Shown here piece after piece: positions 49,555 through 54,185 of a stretch of 64,000 nt of DNA. This DNA comes from a virus, in IMG/VR virus record IMGVR_UViG_3300024264_000029, positions 1 to 64,000 of that record; one strand, given 5' to 3'. Below the pieces are notes generated by a model. That model was not told the DNA's origin. It searched no databases and worked only from the letters and a program-made list of their open reading frames with translations. Numbering within the stretch: position 1 is the first letter of the stretch; the number at the start of each line of letters is the position of its first letter. Both the position numbers and the translations under genes were made by a program.

Positions 49555-50229
49555 CTAAAATTGATTCTTATATTCTTCTACCATATTTATCAGGTCGCCG
49601 ATGTGTGCATCACGCTTTGAAATAAACACTTCTGGTTCATCCTTATCTGCGATTGCCGCAATAATTACAAGACTATTTATAGGCATTTTATATCTCTCTT
49701 CAAACATAACTGCATATCCTGCAGCTTGACGGAAATATTTTTCTAACTTACCATATTTATCACCGACCATAGGTTGCCTAGAAGTCTTAAAGTCGATTAC
49801 GGACAACTTACCATCAAAATCTGCTACACAGTCTACAGTGCCTGCTAAACCAAGATGGTCAGAGTACATAGGTTTCTCTTGTGCATAGATATTATCAACA
49901 CGATTATCAAGAACAGGTTTTATCTTCAAAAAAGTCTCTATGTCAAATGGCATAGTCTTTTCTGTTTTCCATTCTAGATTATTTAGGTGGTCTTCAGCCA
50001 TTTGATGGACACTAGTTCCACTTCTTGCTGCTTGTGTTGTTATTTTGTTTGCAACTTCCGCACCAACTCTTCTTCTCCACTCTGCAATACCCTTTGCGGA
50101 AAAATGTGAGAGAACAGTTGTGATAGATGGATACTTATTTCCATCTGGTGTTTCATAAAATCTTTTGCCATTTTCTGTAACCCTTTTTAAAGTGTGGGTT
50201 GGCAATTCAACATCTACATGATTAAACAT
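49555..50229 (-). CDS. RecB-like PD-(D/E)XK exonuclease (224 aa)
   Basis: Conserved phage nuclease of the PD-(D/E)XK superfamily: KYPSITTVLSHFSAKGIAEW, RSGTSVHQMAEDHL, then GLAGTVDCVADFDGKLSVID with DFKTSRQP, and the RecB-type Gln/Tyr helix YFRQAAGYAVMFEERY. Catalytic residues are likely the Asp in GTVDC, the Asp of VIDFKTS and its Lys. Likely role in DNA recombination, repair or host DNA degradation. The first nine codons plus the leader are duplicated 466 bp upstream (see repeats). Confidence 0.85.
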   Translation of the reverse strand: MFNHVDVELPTHTLKRVTENGKRFYETPDGNKYPSITTVLSHFSAKGIAEWRRRVGAEVANKITTQAARSGTSVHQMAEDHLNNLEWKTEKTMPFDIETFLKIKPVLDNRVDNIYAQEKPMYSDHLGLAGTVDCVADFDGKLSVIDFKTSRQPMVGDKYGKLEKYFRQAAGYAVMFEERYKMPINSLVIIAAIADKDEPEVFISKRDAHIGDLINMVEEYKNQF

Positions 50230-50286
50230 TTTTAATTCCTATTTTAAGTTAAACCTCATCCTCCAGCTCAACTCTTCCTTTCTGTC
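50209..50286. repeat. 78-bp direct repeat, copy A
   Basis: Perfectly identical to 50675-50752. On the minus strand it contains the last codons of a zinc-finger gene, a ribosome site and the start of the exonuclease gene. Copy A is fused to a partial tmRNA-like sequence at GACAG. Confidence 0.95.
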
Positions 50287-50467
50287 GATCCTAGTTCAGC
50301 CCCATCATAAAGACATTCTCATAAATGATACCATAGTATTAGTAAACCCTATTTTACGTCGATTACTAATACTATGATGTTAGTTCAAATGTCCTTATGG
50401 TGGAGCTGTGGGGTACTGCCCCCCAGTCCAGTTCGTATTCGATTTGTTTCATCGATTACATCTTTAC
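50287..50467 (-). ncRNA. Partial, permuted tmRNA-like locus (acceptor half plus 5-prime start only)
   Basis: On the minus strand: a small hairpin (TCGAT / ATCGA), then the acceptor half with T-arm-like TGGGG-GGCAGTA-CCCCA, the acceptor strand CAGCTCC and ACCA (ending 50398); a linker stem TAAGGACATT / AATGTCTTTA; then GGGGCTG (50297-50303) and GAACTAGGATCGACAG. CAGCTCC pairs with GGGGCTG including the G3-U pair used for alanine charging. It parallels the complete tmRNA gene at 53310-53643, with compensatory changes in every stem. The coding half with tag and the P2 partner are missing; the sequence switches to the 78-bp repeat at GACAG. Confidence 0.75.
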
Positions 50468-50656
50468 TTAGTCCATGTCCATGACTAAGAATTCTTTGTC
50501 TAACCATTTGCGTTCTTTTTTGTTATACGCTTTCTTGATCTTTTTGCAAACTTTAGATCTTTGTGTATAACAGTAGAACTCACGCGCATCAGTTAACACA
50601 TCCCACTCATCACCAGAGTTCATAGGTTTTCTTGGCAGTCTACTATTTCTCTGCAT
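50468..50656 (-). CDS. Basic protein inside the 466-bp insertion (62 aa)
   Basis: Start codon follows GAAGGAAGATTAG. Sequence is basic: LPRKPMNSGDEWDVLTDARE, then SKVCKKIKKAYNKKERKWLD. It recalls small phage proteins starting with an LPRKPM-GDE motif, of unknown function. It lies wholly inside the segment bounded by the 78-bp repeats, so it arrived with the tmRNA-like piece. Possibly nucleic-acid binding, judging only by charge. Confidence 0.65.
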   Translation of the reverse strand: MQRNSRLPRKPMNSGDEWDVLTDAREFYCYTQRSKVCKKIKKAYNKKERKWLDKEFLVMDMD

Positions 50657-50674
50657 CTAATCTTCCTTCTATGA

Positions 50675-50752
50675 AACATCTACATGATTAAACATTTTTA
50701 ATTCCTATTTTAAGTTAAACCTCATCCTCCAGCTCAACTCTTCCTTTCTGTC
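50675..50752. repeat. 78-bp direct repeat, copy B
   Basis: Identical to 50209-50286, period 466 bp. On the minus strand it ends the zinc-finger gene and then reads MFNHVDVS-stop, a broken copy of the exonuclease start. Confidence 0.95.
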
Positions 50753-50882
50753 CACATTTCGGGCAATACCAATTGCCCCGATCAATTTTAAAATTACTTC
50801 TCATTACTGCATAAGTGAAGTAACACTTACACTGGGCACAAGTAATATGAAAAATATATTCCAAGTGCGCCGAGAAACTCAT
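50715..50882 (-). CDS. Small zinc-ribbon protein (55 aa)
   Basis: Not obvious by length, but has two CxxC pairs spaced for one zinc ion: HITCAQCKCYF and WYCPKCGQKGRV, ending VELEDEV. It starts three bases past the upstream stop. Likely a small zinc-binding adaptor. Its last ten codons are duplicated in the 78-bp repeat. Confidence 0.75.
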   Translation of the reverse strand: MSFSAHLEYIFHITCAQCKCYFTYAVMRSNFKIDRGNWYCPKCGQKGRVELEDEV

Positions 50883-50883
50883 A

Positions 50884-51216
50884 TCATTCTTCTTCCTTGA
50901 AACCCATTTTCAGAAGTTTTATGTATTGAAACATATCTTCTGAAAATGGATTATCAATTCCTAATTGTCTATCCACAATTGCTTCCAAAACCATATTCAT
51001 AAAGGCCATTTCCTCATGTAGGCCTTCATCTGTAGATAAAGGAAACTCATAATCATTCGTAAGTTTATCAATAACATCAATCATAACATGATGACAGATT
51101 TGTTCAGTCTCAGAACCATTGGCCAAATAATCATTGATAGAATCAAGATCAATATGTCCACTTTCTTTCTTTGCACCAAATAATTCTGTTGCATCTATTA
51201 CGACATTTGTTTCCAT
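50884..51216 (-). CDS. Acidic protein of unknown function (110 aa)
   Basis: Acidic helical protein (HIDLDSINDYLANGSETEQI, DEGLHEEMAFMNMVLEAIVD). Its start overlaps the PhoH stop (TAATG), so both are co-translated. Family not recognised; conserved neighbours of phoH in T4-like phages often are of this size. Confidence 0.75.
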   Translation of the reverse strand: METNVVIDATELFGAKKESGHIDLDSINDYLANGSETEQICHHVMIDVIDKLTNDYEFPLSTDEGLHEEMAFMNMVLEAIVDRQLGIDNPFSEDMFQYIKLLKMGFKEEE

Positions 51217-51938
51217 TAAGCTATTCCTAATTCCAACTTGTTGATTATATAGTCTTTAACCAAAGCACTTCTGACAATATCATCTTGGCCAAATTCAATG
51301 AATGCGAATTGTGGCATATTTTTAATAATTTTCATAAAATCTAAAACGCCGTCTTTTTCGTCTTTCCATCTGAAATCAGACTGTCTGAAATCTCCACAGA
51401 ATAATATTAAACAGTTTTCTCCCATTCTGGTTATCACTGAATCCAATTCGTGAAAATTCATATTTTGACATTCATCTACTATGATTATACTATCGTAAAA
51501 AGTTTGTCCTCGTATAAAAGATGTTGAAGTAAAGTTAATTAAGTTATTCTTTCTTAGACTTTCATATGCAGTGCCACATTCTAATAATTCATTAACTATT
51601 GTCTTATATGGTGCTTCATATGATTCTATTTTTTGTTTTTCGGTGCCAGGCAAAAATCCCATATCTCTAGTAGGAACTACACTTCTTATAATTTGTATTT
51701 CTCTGTACATAGATCTGGAAGACATTAATTCTCTCAGCGCAAGATACAGCGAAACGAATGTTTTTCCTGTTCCTGCTACTCCATGTAGAAATAGGTGGTG
51801 GCCATCTTCAAAAGCGTTAAATACTTCTTGTTGAGATGGTGTTGCCGGATAAATTCTTTTTAAATCTGAACTCCTGTTATCTAAACCGATGAATCTTTTA
51901 TTTCTATTAATTTTACTTTTTTTGGATCTTTTGCTCAC
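51216..51938 (-). CDS. phoH: PhoH-like P-loop ATPase (240 aa)
   Basis: PhoH family: QQEVFNAFEDGHHLFLHGVA, Walker A GVAGTGKTF, an Arg-rich sensor region RSVVPTRDMGFLPGTEKQKI, Walker B SIIIVDECQNM, then CGDFRQSDFRW. The N-terminal 25 residues are basic. Very common in marine phages and sometimes linked to phosphate stress, though the biochemical role (ATPase, perhaps RNA-related) is unsettled. Followed by the acidic 110-aa gene with one-base overlap. Confidence 0.92.
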   Translation of the reverse strand: MSKRSKKSKINRNKRFIGLDNRSSDLKRIYPATPSQQEVFNAFEDGHHLFLHGVAGTGKTFVSLYLALRELMSSRSMYREIQIIRSVVPTRDMGFLPGTEKQKIESYEAPYKTIVNELLECGTAYESLRKNNLINFTSTSFIRGQTFYDSIIIVDECQNMNFHELDSVITRMGENCLILFCGDFRQSDFRWKDEKDGVLDFMKIIKNMPQFAFIEFGQDDIVRSALVKDYIINKLELGIA

Positions 51939-51988
51939 GCCAGACTCCTTACTCTGTTAGGGGAAAAGACATGTGAACTTATACCTAT

Positions 51989-52273
51989 TTACGAACCGAC
52001 CTCTCTTGTAAACTTAGTTTCATTATATGTTTTACCCATAGATTTATCGAAGGCTTTATCCAAAACCTTTTCTTTGAACTCTAGGGGAACTTTCGTGACG
52101 CCCATGGCGACAGGATCAGCAACCATAGGAGCTTTGGTGATAATCTGTTTTAATTTTTTGGGTTGAGAGCATTGTGGACAAGAACCTTGTAGGACCTCAT
52201 CTCTTTCAGAAATTTTACACGAATGTTCATATTCGTGATTGCAATTTGTACATCTAAATGTGTATAGTGGCAT
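51989..52273 (-). CDS. FmdB-type zinc-ribbon protein (94 aa)
   Basis: N-terminal zinc ribbon MPLYTFRCTNCNHEYEHSC followed by SCPQCSQPKKLKQII, the FmdB/CxxC_CXXC regulator pattern, then a helical tail (KEKVLDKAFDKSMGKTYNET). Could bind DNA, RNA or a host protein. Stands alone between two small gaps. Confidence 0.8.
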   Translation of the reverse strand: MPLYTFRCTNCNHEYEHSCKISERDEVLQGSCPQCSQPKKLKQIITKAPMVADPVAMGVTKVPLEFKEKVLDKAFDKSMGKTYNETKFTREVGS

Positions 52274-52296
52274 TATAACCTCATTTCACTATTATA

Positions 52297-52402
52297 GATG
52301 TTAGGCATAAATTTATATTCAAATATACTTTTCCGTTTTTGATTACTCAATATAGAAATACATAACGATACTAATATATATGAAACATTAATACCTAACA
52401 TC
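52297..52402. other. Structured AT-rich gap with 9-bp inverted repeat
   Basis: GATGTTAGG (52297-52305) and CCTAACATC (52394-52402) enclose 88 AT-rich bases in the 146-base gap upstream of the FmdB-like gene. Could fold as an RNA leader or hold regulatory sites. No clear promoter or ORF seen. Confidence 0.45.
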
Positions 52403-52419
52403 CGTGTTTCACGCTAGTT

Positions 52420-52641
52420 TTAATCTTTATTAGAAACAAAAGAATACAATTCTTTAGCCTTAACCATAAGTTCTTCCATAGAGTACATTTTATATGCATC
52501 TTGGACTTCTTCATAAGTTTTATTACCCTGCTCGTACATATCGTTCATCAACTGAACATTCATATGATATTGACTATCCATATAGTCTTTAGCAAGTTTA
52601 AGCATATCTGCTCTTATTTCAAATGGGTTCTTATTAGACAT
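52420..52641 (-). CDS. Conserved small helical protein (73 aa)
   Basis: Helical protein (NPFEIRADMLKLAKDYMDSQ, YKMYSMEELMVKAKELYSFV). The NPFEIRxxxLxxAKxYMDxQ pattern recurs in T4-like marine phages in my recollection, with no known function. Its start overlaps the stop of the upstream gene (TAATG). Confidence 0.75.
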   Translation of the reverse strand: MSNKNPFEIRADMLKLAKDYMDSQYHMNVQLMNDMYEQGNKTYEEVQDAYKMYSMEELMVKAKELYSFVSNKD

Positions 52642-52850
52642 TATTTCATTCCCTTCACAAACGCATCACCAGTTGCATTTGCAAAATCATTCATAGATTT
52701 TACTGCAATTTTTGTGAATGTTGTTTGGGCTTCAATAAAGGCCTTTAGTGGCGCAGACAAAGTTTCGTCTTTTACTAAAGTGTCAACCATTGTTTTCTTT
52801 GTAGTCTGGATATGGTCAATCCAGTAGTTTGTTGTCCAATCATTAATCAT
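52641..52850 (-). CDS. Small helical protein, weakly phasin-like (69 aa)
   Basis: Helical and amphipathic: WTTNYWIDHIQTTKKTMVDT, then LKAFIEAQTTFTKIAVKSMN and DFANATGDAFVKGM. The second half resembles the helix of phasins (polyhydroxyalkanoate granule proteins), but it is too short for a sure match. CAGGAGAAAAAT precedes the start. Coupled to the next gene. Confidence 0.65.
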   Translation of the reverse strand: MINDWTTNYWIDHIQTTKKTMVDTLVKDETLSAPLKAFIEAQTTFTKIAVKSMNDFANATGDAFVKGMK

Positions 52851-52876
52851 ATTTTTCTCCTGTGTGTTTGTGTAAA

Positions 52877-52898
52877 TTCCCCCTAACCATGGGGGGAA
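52877..52898 (-). terminator. Terminator behind the outer-membrane-like gene
   Basis: Stem TTCCCCC / GGGGGAA (7 bp, loop 8 nt) followed on the minus strand by TTT; about 33 bases past the stop at 52931. Confidence 0.7.
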
Positions 52899-52930
52899 GC
52901 GTGCTGATTAAGGAGCAACCCTACAACTAT

Positions 52931-53284
52931 TTAGAAGCTGAATGATGCACCAATGCTAATATCACCCATTCCCCACTCATCGTCTGTAGTGGTTTTTGTA
53001 TATACTTCCAAGCCAGTTACTGAAGTTACTGGTAGTGTTACTTGATATTCCATACCTGTAAATTCAATATCTTCTAGATCCATAATATTTGGGCCAACTT
53101 CTACGTTAGCAATACCAAAATTCCATGTCAAATCAGTTTCAAATGTCAAAGCATTTGTTTCTGTTTCCATGTTTCTTTCTGCTTTAAATTCACTGTCTAA
53201 TGATAGACCATTTCCTAATTCAATCGCTGCGGCCGAACTTGCCAAACCAAGTGCAACAACACTTGCTGTAATAAGAGTTTTCAT
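52931..53284 (-). CDS. Secreted outer-membrane-barrel-like protein (117 aa)
   Basis: Clear signal peptide MKTLITASVVALGLASSAAA with cleavage before IELGNG. The mature 97 residues alternate polar and hydrophobic residues (NALTFETDLTWNFGIANVEV, MEYQVTLPVTSVTGLEVYTK) and end GDISIGASFSF; a C-terminal Phe on a beta strand is the insertion signal of outer-membrane barrels. It may sit in the host outer membrane, perhaps for superinfection exclusion or host surface change; that is inference. AAGGAAATACAGAA precedes the start, just after the tmRNA gene. Confidence 0.8.
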   Translation of the reverse strand: MKTLITASVVALGLASSAAAIELGNGLSLDSEFKAERNMETETNALTFETDLTWNFGIANVEVGPNIMDLEDIEFTGMEYQVTLPVTSVTGLEVYTKTTTDDEWGMGDISIGASFSF

Positions 53285-53309
53285 TTCTGTATTTCCTTTG
53301 TTAAAATTC

Positions 53310-53643
53310 TTATAAATTAAAATGTCACTACTTCTGTTGCTAGGTGAGTGACCAACCCCCTGTGGTTATGCTGCTAGAGCAAACTCAGATGGTGCAAAAT
53401 TATCGTTTGCATTTGTAGTTTGTGGCTGAATAACGTAGGCCAACACGGTAATCTACTCTCATCTCTACACACCTGTCGATCCTAGTTCGCCCCCATCATA
53501 AATGCACTAACTTCGACTACCCATTCGGGCCATCTATGTTCTGCAAAACTTCCTGTTGCAGCAGGACGCAGTGCATTTATGGTGGAGGCGTTGGGTACTG
53601 CCCCCAAGTCCAGTATGTATGTTGAATCGTATCAACAATTACA
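53310..53643 (-). ncRNA. ssrA: Two-piece (circularly permuted) tmRNA gene
   Basis: On the minus strand in transcription order: acceptor half with T-arm TTGGG-GGCAGTA-CCCAA, CGCCTCC and encoded ACCA (3-prime end 53580); an excised linker with stem TAAATGCACT / AGTGCATTTA; the coding half starting GGGGGCG (53488-53494), GAACTAGGATCGACAGG, the tag frame ANDNFAPSEFALAA-stop (53366-53410), and a final hairpin GTCACT / AGTGAC followed by ATTTTAATTT. GGGGGCG pairs with CGCCTCC with G-U as third pair, the alanine identity. P2 can form between GTGTGTA (53466-53472) and TACATAC (53613-53619). This layout is the alphaproteobacterial split tmRNA, which rescues stalled ribosomes and tags their peptides. 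Ends are approximate. Confidence 0.93.
53324..53352 (-). terminator. Hairpin at the 3-prime end of the tmRNA gene
   Basis: GTCACT (53347-53352) pairs with AGTGAC (53324-53329); then ATTTTAATTTATAAG on the minus strand. May be a terminator or a structural end of the coding piece. Confidence 0.55.
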
Positions 53644-53649
53644 AGTATA

Positions 53650-53678
53650 CTTATAACATAGTTTTCCATGTGCGTCAA
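53650..53678 (-). promoter_or_regulatory. Promoter of the tmRNA gene
   Basis: TTGACG (53673-53678), 17-base spacer, TATAAG (53650-53655), placing the start about 53643, directly before the acceptor half. CCATGTG (53666-53672) and CACATGG (53702-53708) form an inverted repeat around the -35 box. Confidence 0.75.
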
Positions 53679-53714
53679 TAGTTTTTCAACTTTTTAATAC
53701 ACATGGTATTTTTA

Positions 53715-54185
53715 TCACACTATCAGTTCGAAGTGTGGGCCATCAATAAATGGTCTGCGATTTTGAGAACGGCGCAAATCAATATATGCATTCATTGCAT
53801 CTTCTGCTGTACCCTCATAAGAACGGATATCACCTTCTGACCATGCTGCTCCCCACTTGACTGCAACACCCTTTTCTTCTGCTGCCTGCTTGAATGCATC
53901 GCAGATGTTATCGTATACATTAATTTCCCACACAACATCTGATCCATCGTAAGCTACGACATCAACTGCATGTGAATATCCACTATCTTGAATAAGGTGT
54001 TTTGACTTCATAGTTTGAGAACGTCCAGATGCTACTAATTTTTCTTGCTCTTCGACCGTCCGAACACCATATGTGACTCCGAAATCAACCGAAGTCAATT
54101 CGATAGCACGTTCTACGACTGCGACCATATCTGGATGGACACCTTCTAATTTAACCTTTGATCTATTTGATAATTTAAATGCCAT
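53715..54185 (-). CDS. Endolysin: M15-type L-alanyl-D-glutamate peptidase (156 aa)
   Basis: Peptidase M15 fold of the T5-endolysin type: GVTYGVRTVEEQEKLVASGR, the zinc-binding SKHLIQDSGYSHAVDVVAYD (His72 and Asp75 as ligands) and the closing DGPHFELIV with the third ligand His. Cuts peptidoglycan stem peptides to release progeny. AAGGATTAGAT precedes the start. Sits just upstream of the tmRNA promoter. No holin is adjacent; the EF-hand membrane protein at 42260 and other small membrane proteins are candidates. Confidence 0.92.
   Translation of the reverse strand: MAFKLSNRSKVKLEGVHPDMVAVVERAIELTSVDFGVTYGVRTVEEQEKLVASGRSQTMKSKHLIQDSGYSHAVDVVAYDGSDVVWEINVYDNICDAFKQAAEEKGVAVKWGAAWSEGDIRSYEGTAEDAMNAYIDLRRSQNRRPFIDGPHFELIV

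Follow-up and report, generated by a model that had tools for sequence, protein, structure and literature searches.

Does the tmRNA-like locus of this phage encode a working two-piece RNA, where does the gene come from, and what might the phage gain from it? The window (the whole stretch of DNA analysed here, 64,000 nt) is a fragment of a T4-like phage, taken from a 64.7-kb record and carrying tail, baseplate, PhoH, exonuclease and endolysin genes. A preliminary description had recognized on its minus strand a complete, phage-encoded permuted tmRNA of the alphaproteobacterial type, and a covariance-model scan bears this out: RF01849 (Rfam alpha_tmRNA) matches 53693-53323(-) over the full model (1-355) with 126.9 bits and an E-value of 3e-34, the gathering threshold being 50. 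The general model RF04321 (Rfam tmRNA_permuted) also matches over its whole length (118.8 bits, cut-off 47), and ARAGORN independently predicts a permuted tmRNA with the tag ANDNFAPSEFALAA. The RF01849 score is lower than that of most bacterial alphaproteobacterial ssrA genes (127 bits versus mostly about 195-313 bits), and the window gene is therefore a diverged form. Because the covariance models, the pairing of the halves, the conservation of the tag and the conserved promoter speak for it, we consider the presence of a complete, phage-encoded alphaproteobacterial-type two-piece tmRNA with an intact tag strongly supported. It is a real gene and, judging from its sequence, very probably a functional one.

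Table 1. Features of the main tmRNA locus and of the second, tag-less locus, in window coordinates.
Feature	Position	Strand	Evidence or remark
Complete permuted (two-piece) tmRNA gene including promoter	53678-53324	-	Rfam and ARAGORN
Promoter: -35 TTGACG (53678-53673), 17-nt spacer, -10 TATAAG followed by TA (53655-53648)	53648-53678	-	Homologous position in relatives: TTGACA-17-TATAAATA
Acceptor half (GGAC...CCA at 53611-53580): T arm, loop GGCAGTA, acceptor 3' strand CGCCTCC, encoded CCA (53582-53580)	53580-53622	-	
P2 5' strand, in acceptor half	about 53622-53611	-	
Linker between halves, 85 nt	53495-53579	-	Inverted repeat at ends
Coding half: acceptor 5' strand GGGGGCG, D-loop, GGATCGAC, P2 3' strand, putative pseudoknot region, tag	53324-53494	-	
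3' hairpin of coding half, GTCACT/AGTGAC, with conserved GCAACAGAA loop		-	Predicted 3' end of coding half, 53324
Tag frame ANDNFAPSEFALAA and TAA stop	53366-53410	-	ARAGORN; codon-level conservation
Second, partial tmRNA: complete tRNA-like domain, cut right after GGATCGACAG, without tag	50282-50432	-	RF01849 62.5 bits, model 85-169 only
78-nt perfect direct repeat, 3' side of insertion	50209-50286	-	
78-nt perfect direct repeat, 5' side of insertion	50675-50752	-	
62-aa ORF, inserted together with tRNA-like domain	50468-50656	-	Homologues next to or within tmRNA and tRNA genes of phages

The locus has the permuted order, with the acceptor half encoded upstream of the coding half and the linker between them (Table 1). 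The parts listed in the preliminary description could be placed: the promoter TTGACG-17-TATAAG at 53678-53650, the acceptor half at 53611-53580 with its encoded CCA ending at 53580, and the coding half from 53494 with the intact tag at 53410-53366. The acceptor stem, GGGGGCG/CGCCTCC, pairs at 7 of 7 positions, and its G3-U pair is G3-U70. The linker stem is also present, since the linker ends (TAAATGCACT and AGTGCATTTATGAT) pair in a stem that is continuous with the acceptor stem; the 85-nt linker itself is presumably removed during processing. The proposed P2 pairing between the halves has a calculated energy of -8.5 kcal/mol in the window. One earlier claim has to be withdrawn: the T-loop GGCAGTA had been taken for a derived form, but the Rfam consensus is GGCgGUA, and GGCAGTA is common in alphaproteobacterial ssrA (22 of 56 bacterial genes, with GGCGGTA in 27 of the 56).

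Relatives indicate that these pairings are maintained. The pattern used to collect the first relatives fixed the T-loop, U70 and a portion of the acceptor, and the sets used here are drawn from among the matches listed. In 97 distinct genes among those matches, all but one from viral contigs, the acceptor stem pairs 7/7 with its own partner in every case (97/97), across linkers of 4-266 nt and in 11 different stem combinations; when the halves are swapped at random, at most 50 of the 97 pair fully (mean 37). Because this set had been filtered for 7/7 stems, and some of the 3' strand was already set by the search pattern, the evidence lies in the contrast between own and swapped partners and in the positions that were free to vary. 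P2 is more stable with its own than with a shuffled partner (mean -5.4 versus -3.6 kcal/mol in 123 phage genes among the matches listed), and the same is true of the stem at the linker ends (mean -10.2 versus -4.1 kcal/mol). G3-U70 is present in all 123 of these phage genes (among the matches listed), U70 having been partly fixed by the search pattern and G3 free.

The tag frame is conserved in related phages. Compared with the locus L131, the window tag has 3 synonymous and 0 replacement codon differences, and the same is true of the comparison with L010; both relatives have a tag of the same length and the same peptide. In 50 phage tags of 14 aa, the third codon position varies about twice as often as the other positions. 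The middle of the tag varies in other relatives, and 105 of 120 phage tags end in LAA. Thus, the synonymous-only drift of the codons and the LAA ends point to selection acting on the tag peptide.

The neighbours of the tmRNA are phage genes. ARAGORN finds five tRNA genes in the tmRNA region, an endolysin gene (PHROG 465) lies directly upstream of the tmRNA, and exonuclease and PhoH genes are nearby. The tmRNA, its position and its tag are unchanged in near-identical contigs (L124, L126, L127 and L140) and in relatives of 84% protein identity (L133, L135-L137 and L131, the last from a 204-kb contig); in near-identical and 84-87% relatives alike, the tmRNA is near the same exonuclease and endolysin genes. 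The record of L131 also contains genes for a T4 major capsid protein and a gp55-type late sigma factor. The window endolysin DNA is 70-74% identical to that of Roseobacter phages CRP-1, CRP-9, CRP-13 and CRP-345, and this likeness, taken together with the alpha type of the tmRNA, may point to a host among the Alphaproteobacteria. A genome scan with the T-arm pattern, as a route to the host, gave one Rickettsiales-labelled MAG only, whose ssrA, a bacterial gene with bacterial neighbours, is an unlikely source. No recognizable copy of smpB was found in 12 related phage records, whereas the control search was positive in 10 bacteria. Host SmpB would therefore be needed if the RNA works, and we presume that host SmpB, AlaRS and proteases are used.

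The promoter is also shared among the phage genes. A looser pattern, TTGAC-(17-19)-TATAA, occurs 5 times in the window versus 0.94 expected. Among the matches listed, 54 of 94 distinct upstream regions match TTGACA-(16-18)-TATAAT with at most two mismatches, compared with 3.5% of control stretches, and the -10 of the matching regions is mostly 41-48 nt before GGAC. The commonest -10 upstream of phage tmRNAs is TATAAATA (34 cases). In 2.3 Mb of loci there are 40 exact TTGACA-17-TATAAATA sites. Of these, 37 stand immediately before a tmRNA, and a 38th (L214) precedes a tmRNA missed by the pattern. At other spacings, TTGACA and TATAAATA occur together 0-2 times in these 2.3 Mb, and the usual -10 of the other TTGACA-17 sites there is TATAAT, with TATAAATA rare. 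In a scan that was not selected for tmRNA, at least 21 of 107 newly fetched promoter sites precede a tmRNA (13 recognized by ARAGORN, 8 by eye). The window promoter is TTGACG-17-TATAAGTA, in contrast to the TTGACA-17-TATAAATA common to its phage relatives. Both TTGACA and TATAAATA are absent before the 29 alphaproteobacterial ssrA genes checked, whose -10 is mostly TATATT-like.

TATAAATA is established as the late-promoter motif of T4. In the window it stands shortly upstream of several genes of the structural region (minus strand; 39691, 26164, 10327 and 6139), and genes for gp23, for a gp55-type protein or for both are present in several large relatives. Contig G014 (L201, 141 kb), which may be incomplete, has the promoter and lacks gp23 and gp55-type genes. 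By its sequence, the phage tmRNA promoter combines a sigma-70 promoter with a T4-type late motif, and we postulate that a TTGACA-17-TATAAATA site may serve both forms of the polymerase. In other phage contigs (for example, L307, L309, L357, L375 and L407) the same composite promoter also lies before a gene with a product beginning MAHFAEL.

The window gene is not the first of its kind. Two-piece phage tmRNAs were published in 2022 for the methylophage Melnitz (MZ577095) and others, with 53 gene types (PMC9004378). Like the window, Melnitz is a marine T4-like phage with a permuted alpha-type gene, a tag of the same type (ANDNYVPVDYALAA) and the composite promoter TTGACA-17-TATAAATA (exact, at L003:4935-4965), and smpB was not found in its record. 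The two tmRNAs are about 77% identical over the aligned half. The authors assign the Melnitz ssrA an early promoter only, and TATAAAT was their late-promoter query (PMC9004378). However, the 3' domain of Melnitz ssrA has a predicted glutamine riboswitch, whereas Rfam finds none in the window at its gathering threshold, nor in 49900-54000 at E up to 1, and the second, tag-less copy is a feature of the window phage. The window gene and its relatives resemble alphaproteobacterial ssrA (RF01849) in the permutation, G3-U70, the T-loop GGCRGTA, GGATCGAC, the type of tag and the 3' hairpin with GCAACAGAA, but the phage copies do not fall within the main clade of the sampled bacteria. What is new here is the phage-side tmRNA lineage, its shared promoter and the tag-less second copy.

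We think it highly probable that the window encodes a functional two-piece tmRNA, belonging to a lineage almost confined to phages. Host RNA polymerase, and later perhaps a phage late sigma factor, would transcribe one precursor from the promoter at 53678-53648. Excision of the linker would split this precursor into an acceptor piece with a CCA end and a coding piece, which pairing in the acceptor stem and P2 would keep joined. The RNA would be charged by host AlaRS (G3-U70) and brought by host SmpB and EF-Tu to ribosomes that have stalled on broken or non-stop mRNAs. Such a ribosome would then move to the tag frame, terminate at its stop codon and be released, and the tagged peptide would end in ALAA, a Clp-type degradation signal. 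The benefit would most likely be that ribosomes are kept available while mRNA is destroyed during infection. Sustained translation and tagging of host peptides, the two roles suggested in the preliminary description, are both plausible, and both ideas are already contained in PMC9004378.

Ribosome rescue could also serve as a counter-defence. The phage tmRNA might restore rescue against host RNases (mRNA interferases, anticodon nucleases) or against a shut-off or depletion of host ssrA. This idea is compatible with the explanation that we prefer; five tRNA genes lie in the same region, and phage tRNAs are thought to aid translation during host takeover (PMC9004378). No defence target was identified, however, and we consider counter-defence unlikely. 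It is improbable that the main purpose is proteolytic tagging, in which host or faulty phage proteins are sent to Clp proteases and their amino acids recycled. Tagging was proposed for Melnitz (PMC9004378), and it would suit a conserved peptide that has kept a degradation-type C-terminus (105/120 LAA). However, tagging acts at ribosomes stalled on broken messages and not on finished proteins, and for this reason bulk degradation of host protein by this route would seem inefficient.

The preliminary description had referred to features held in common by two loci. The main locus is complete as claimed; the second (50282-50432) comprises only the tRNA-like domain of a different tmRNA and is ruled out as a complete gene, since RF01849 matches it over model positions 85-169 only. 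It has its own compensated acceptor stem (GGGGCTG/CAGCTCC, 7/7, with G3-U70), a T arm, CCA and the top of P2, its halves are separated by a 94-nt linker, and its fold has a z of -6.6; GGATCGACAG is followed by ordinary non-tmRNA sequence. The insertion that holds it has 388 unique bases between the two perfect 78-nt repeats. Six sister contigs have a single repeat copy and no insert; one of the six, L126, is identical over the repeat. An assembly error is unlikely because L185 carries the left junction of the insertion and L125 the right junction. In L184, a phage contig, the same 62-aa ORF stands immediately upstream of a complete tmRNA, and short stretches identical to L184 are found at the two joints of the insertion (TAGATGTT and GACAG). 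Together with the repeats and the sister contigs, these identities make the insertion look like the product of illegitimate recombination with an L184-like phage, an event that seems to have stopped inside the tmRNA by chance.

Could this second locus act on the host? A tag-less, tRNA-like RNA made from it might titrate host SmpB and inhibit host trans-translation. The complete tRNA-like domain keeps its 7/7 stem and G3-U70 and folds well. The tmRNA of mycobacteriophage DS6A consists of the TLD only, and strong inhibition of tmRNA by a similar molecule is described (PMC4131195), so an effect of this kind is possible; the second locus is like that of DS6A in being a tRNA-like domain without a tag, and the window copy differs in keeping its linker and in sitting in an insertion with a 78-nt duplication. 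However, the structure looks accidental, with a cut at a 5-nt microhomology (GACAG), the duplication, and its absence from six sister contigs, and no promoter was identified for the second locus. We therefore regard titration of SmpB as quite improbable, and a simple remnant of recombination as more likely.

The 62-aa ORF, which matches neither a Pfam family (E up to 1) nor a PHROG (default cut-off), seems to belong to a family tied to phage tRNA and tmRNA genes. In L188-L191 (about 2949-3230 in L188 coordinates) the linker of a two-piece tmRNA contains a homologue, placed after CCA and before the coding half, and the stop codon of this homologue (AACTAG) falls in the D-loop region of the tmRNA itself; a protein gene is thus nested in the part of the precursor that is presumably excised. 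Another homologue (L187:3001-3165) belongs to a phage tRNA cluster, where its neighbours are tRNA-Glu and tRNA-Ser. The tmRNA of L184 (L184:3187-3450) was missed by ARAGORN; Rfam and the pairing of its halves support it, and its tag is ANDNFAPSELRLAA with the stop codon TAG.

A tree of un-permuted tmRNAs, with 123 phage copies (among the matches listed) and 56 alphaproteobacterial copies over about 260 columns, bears on where the main gene came from; betaproteobacterial ssrA is outside this sample, and the bootstrap is not settled. A single label change sets all 123 phage copies apart on one side of the tree (SH-aLRT 79), and a fuller search without four long branches (119 phage copies) gives two label changes, versus about 48 needed when the labels are shuffled. 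The window tmRNA is placed among the phages (nearest L131, L201, L010, L107 and L100), and two diverged bacterial copies, L183 and L438, fall near the phage side. With so few label changes, the genes seem to have been passed among phages and not repeatedly taken from hosts. The phage tmRNAs thus appear to form one or two lineages apart from the sampled alphaproteobacterial copies, with no sign of recent host capture, and the lineage of the window gene is, on the sequences sampled, almost confined to phages. It is most improbable, and largely refuted, that the gene is a functionless passenger, a host ssrA fragment captured recently (through transduction, or when a prophage excised at ssrA): tmRNA genes are common integration sites and prophages hold ssrA fragments (PMC9004378), but the window gene is complete and no 3' fragment, the 119-123 phage copies need 1-2 label changes against the 56 bacterial copies (shuffled mean 48), and a passenger would not be expected to show compensated stems, a promoter common to its relatives or a tag under apparent purifying selection.

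With one or two lineages, a promoter of their own and a conserved tag, phage tmRNAs look like standing phage genes, and their purpose could therefore be tested in an isolated phage such as Melnitz. The shared promoter predicts the timing of their synthesis. We speculate, tentatively and with some doubt, that marine phages have an old two-piece tmRNA lineage of their own, in which sigma-70 and T4-type late promoters sharing one -10 (TTGACA-17-TATAAATA) provide rescue both early and late, and that the tag-less tRNA-like copy in some genomes could damp host trans-translation. More distant phages (L150-L182; for example, L151:6836-7208 and L159:6597-6985), whose exonuclease is about 50% identical, also have permuted tmRNAs close to the exonuclease gene; their tags are short (ANDAQFALAA type) and their alpha-model scores lower.
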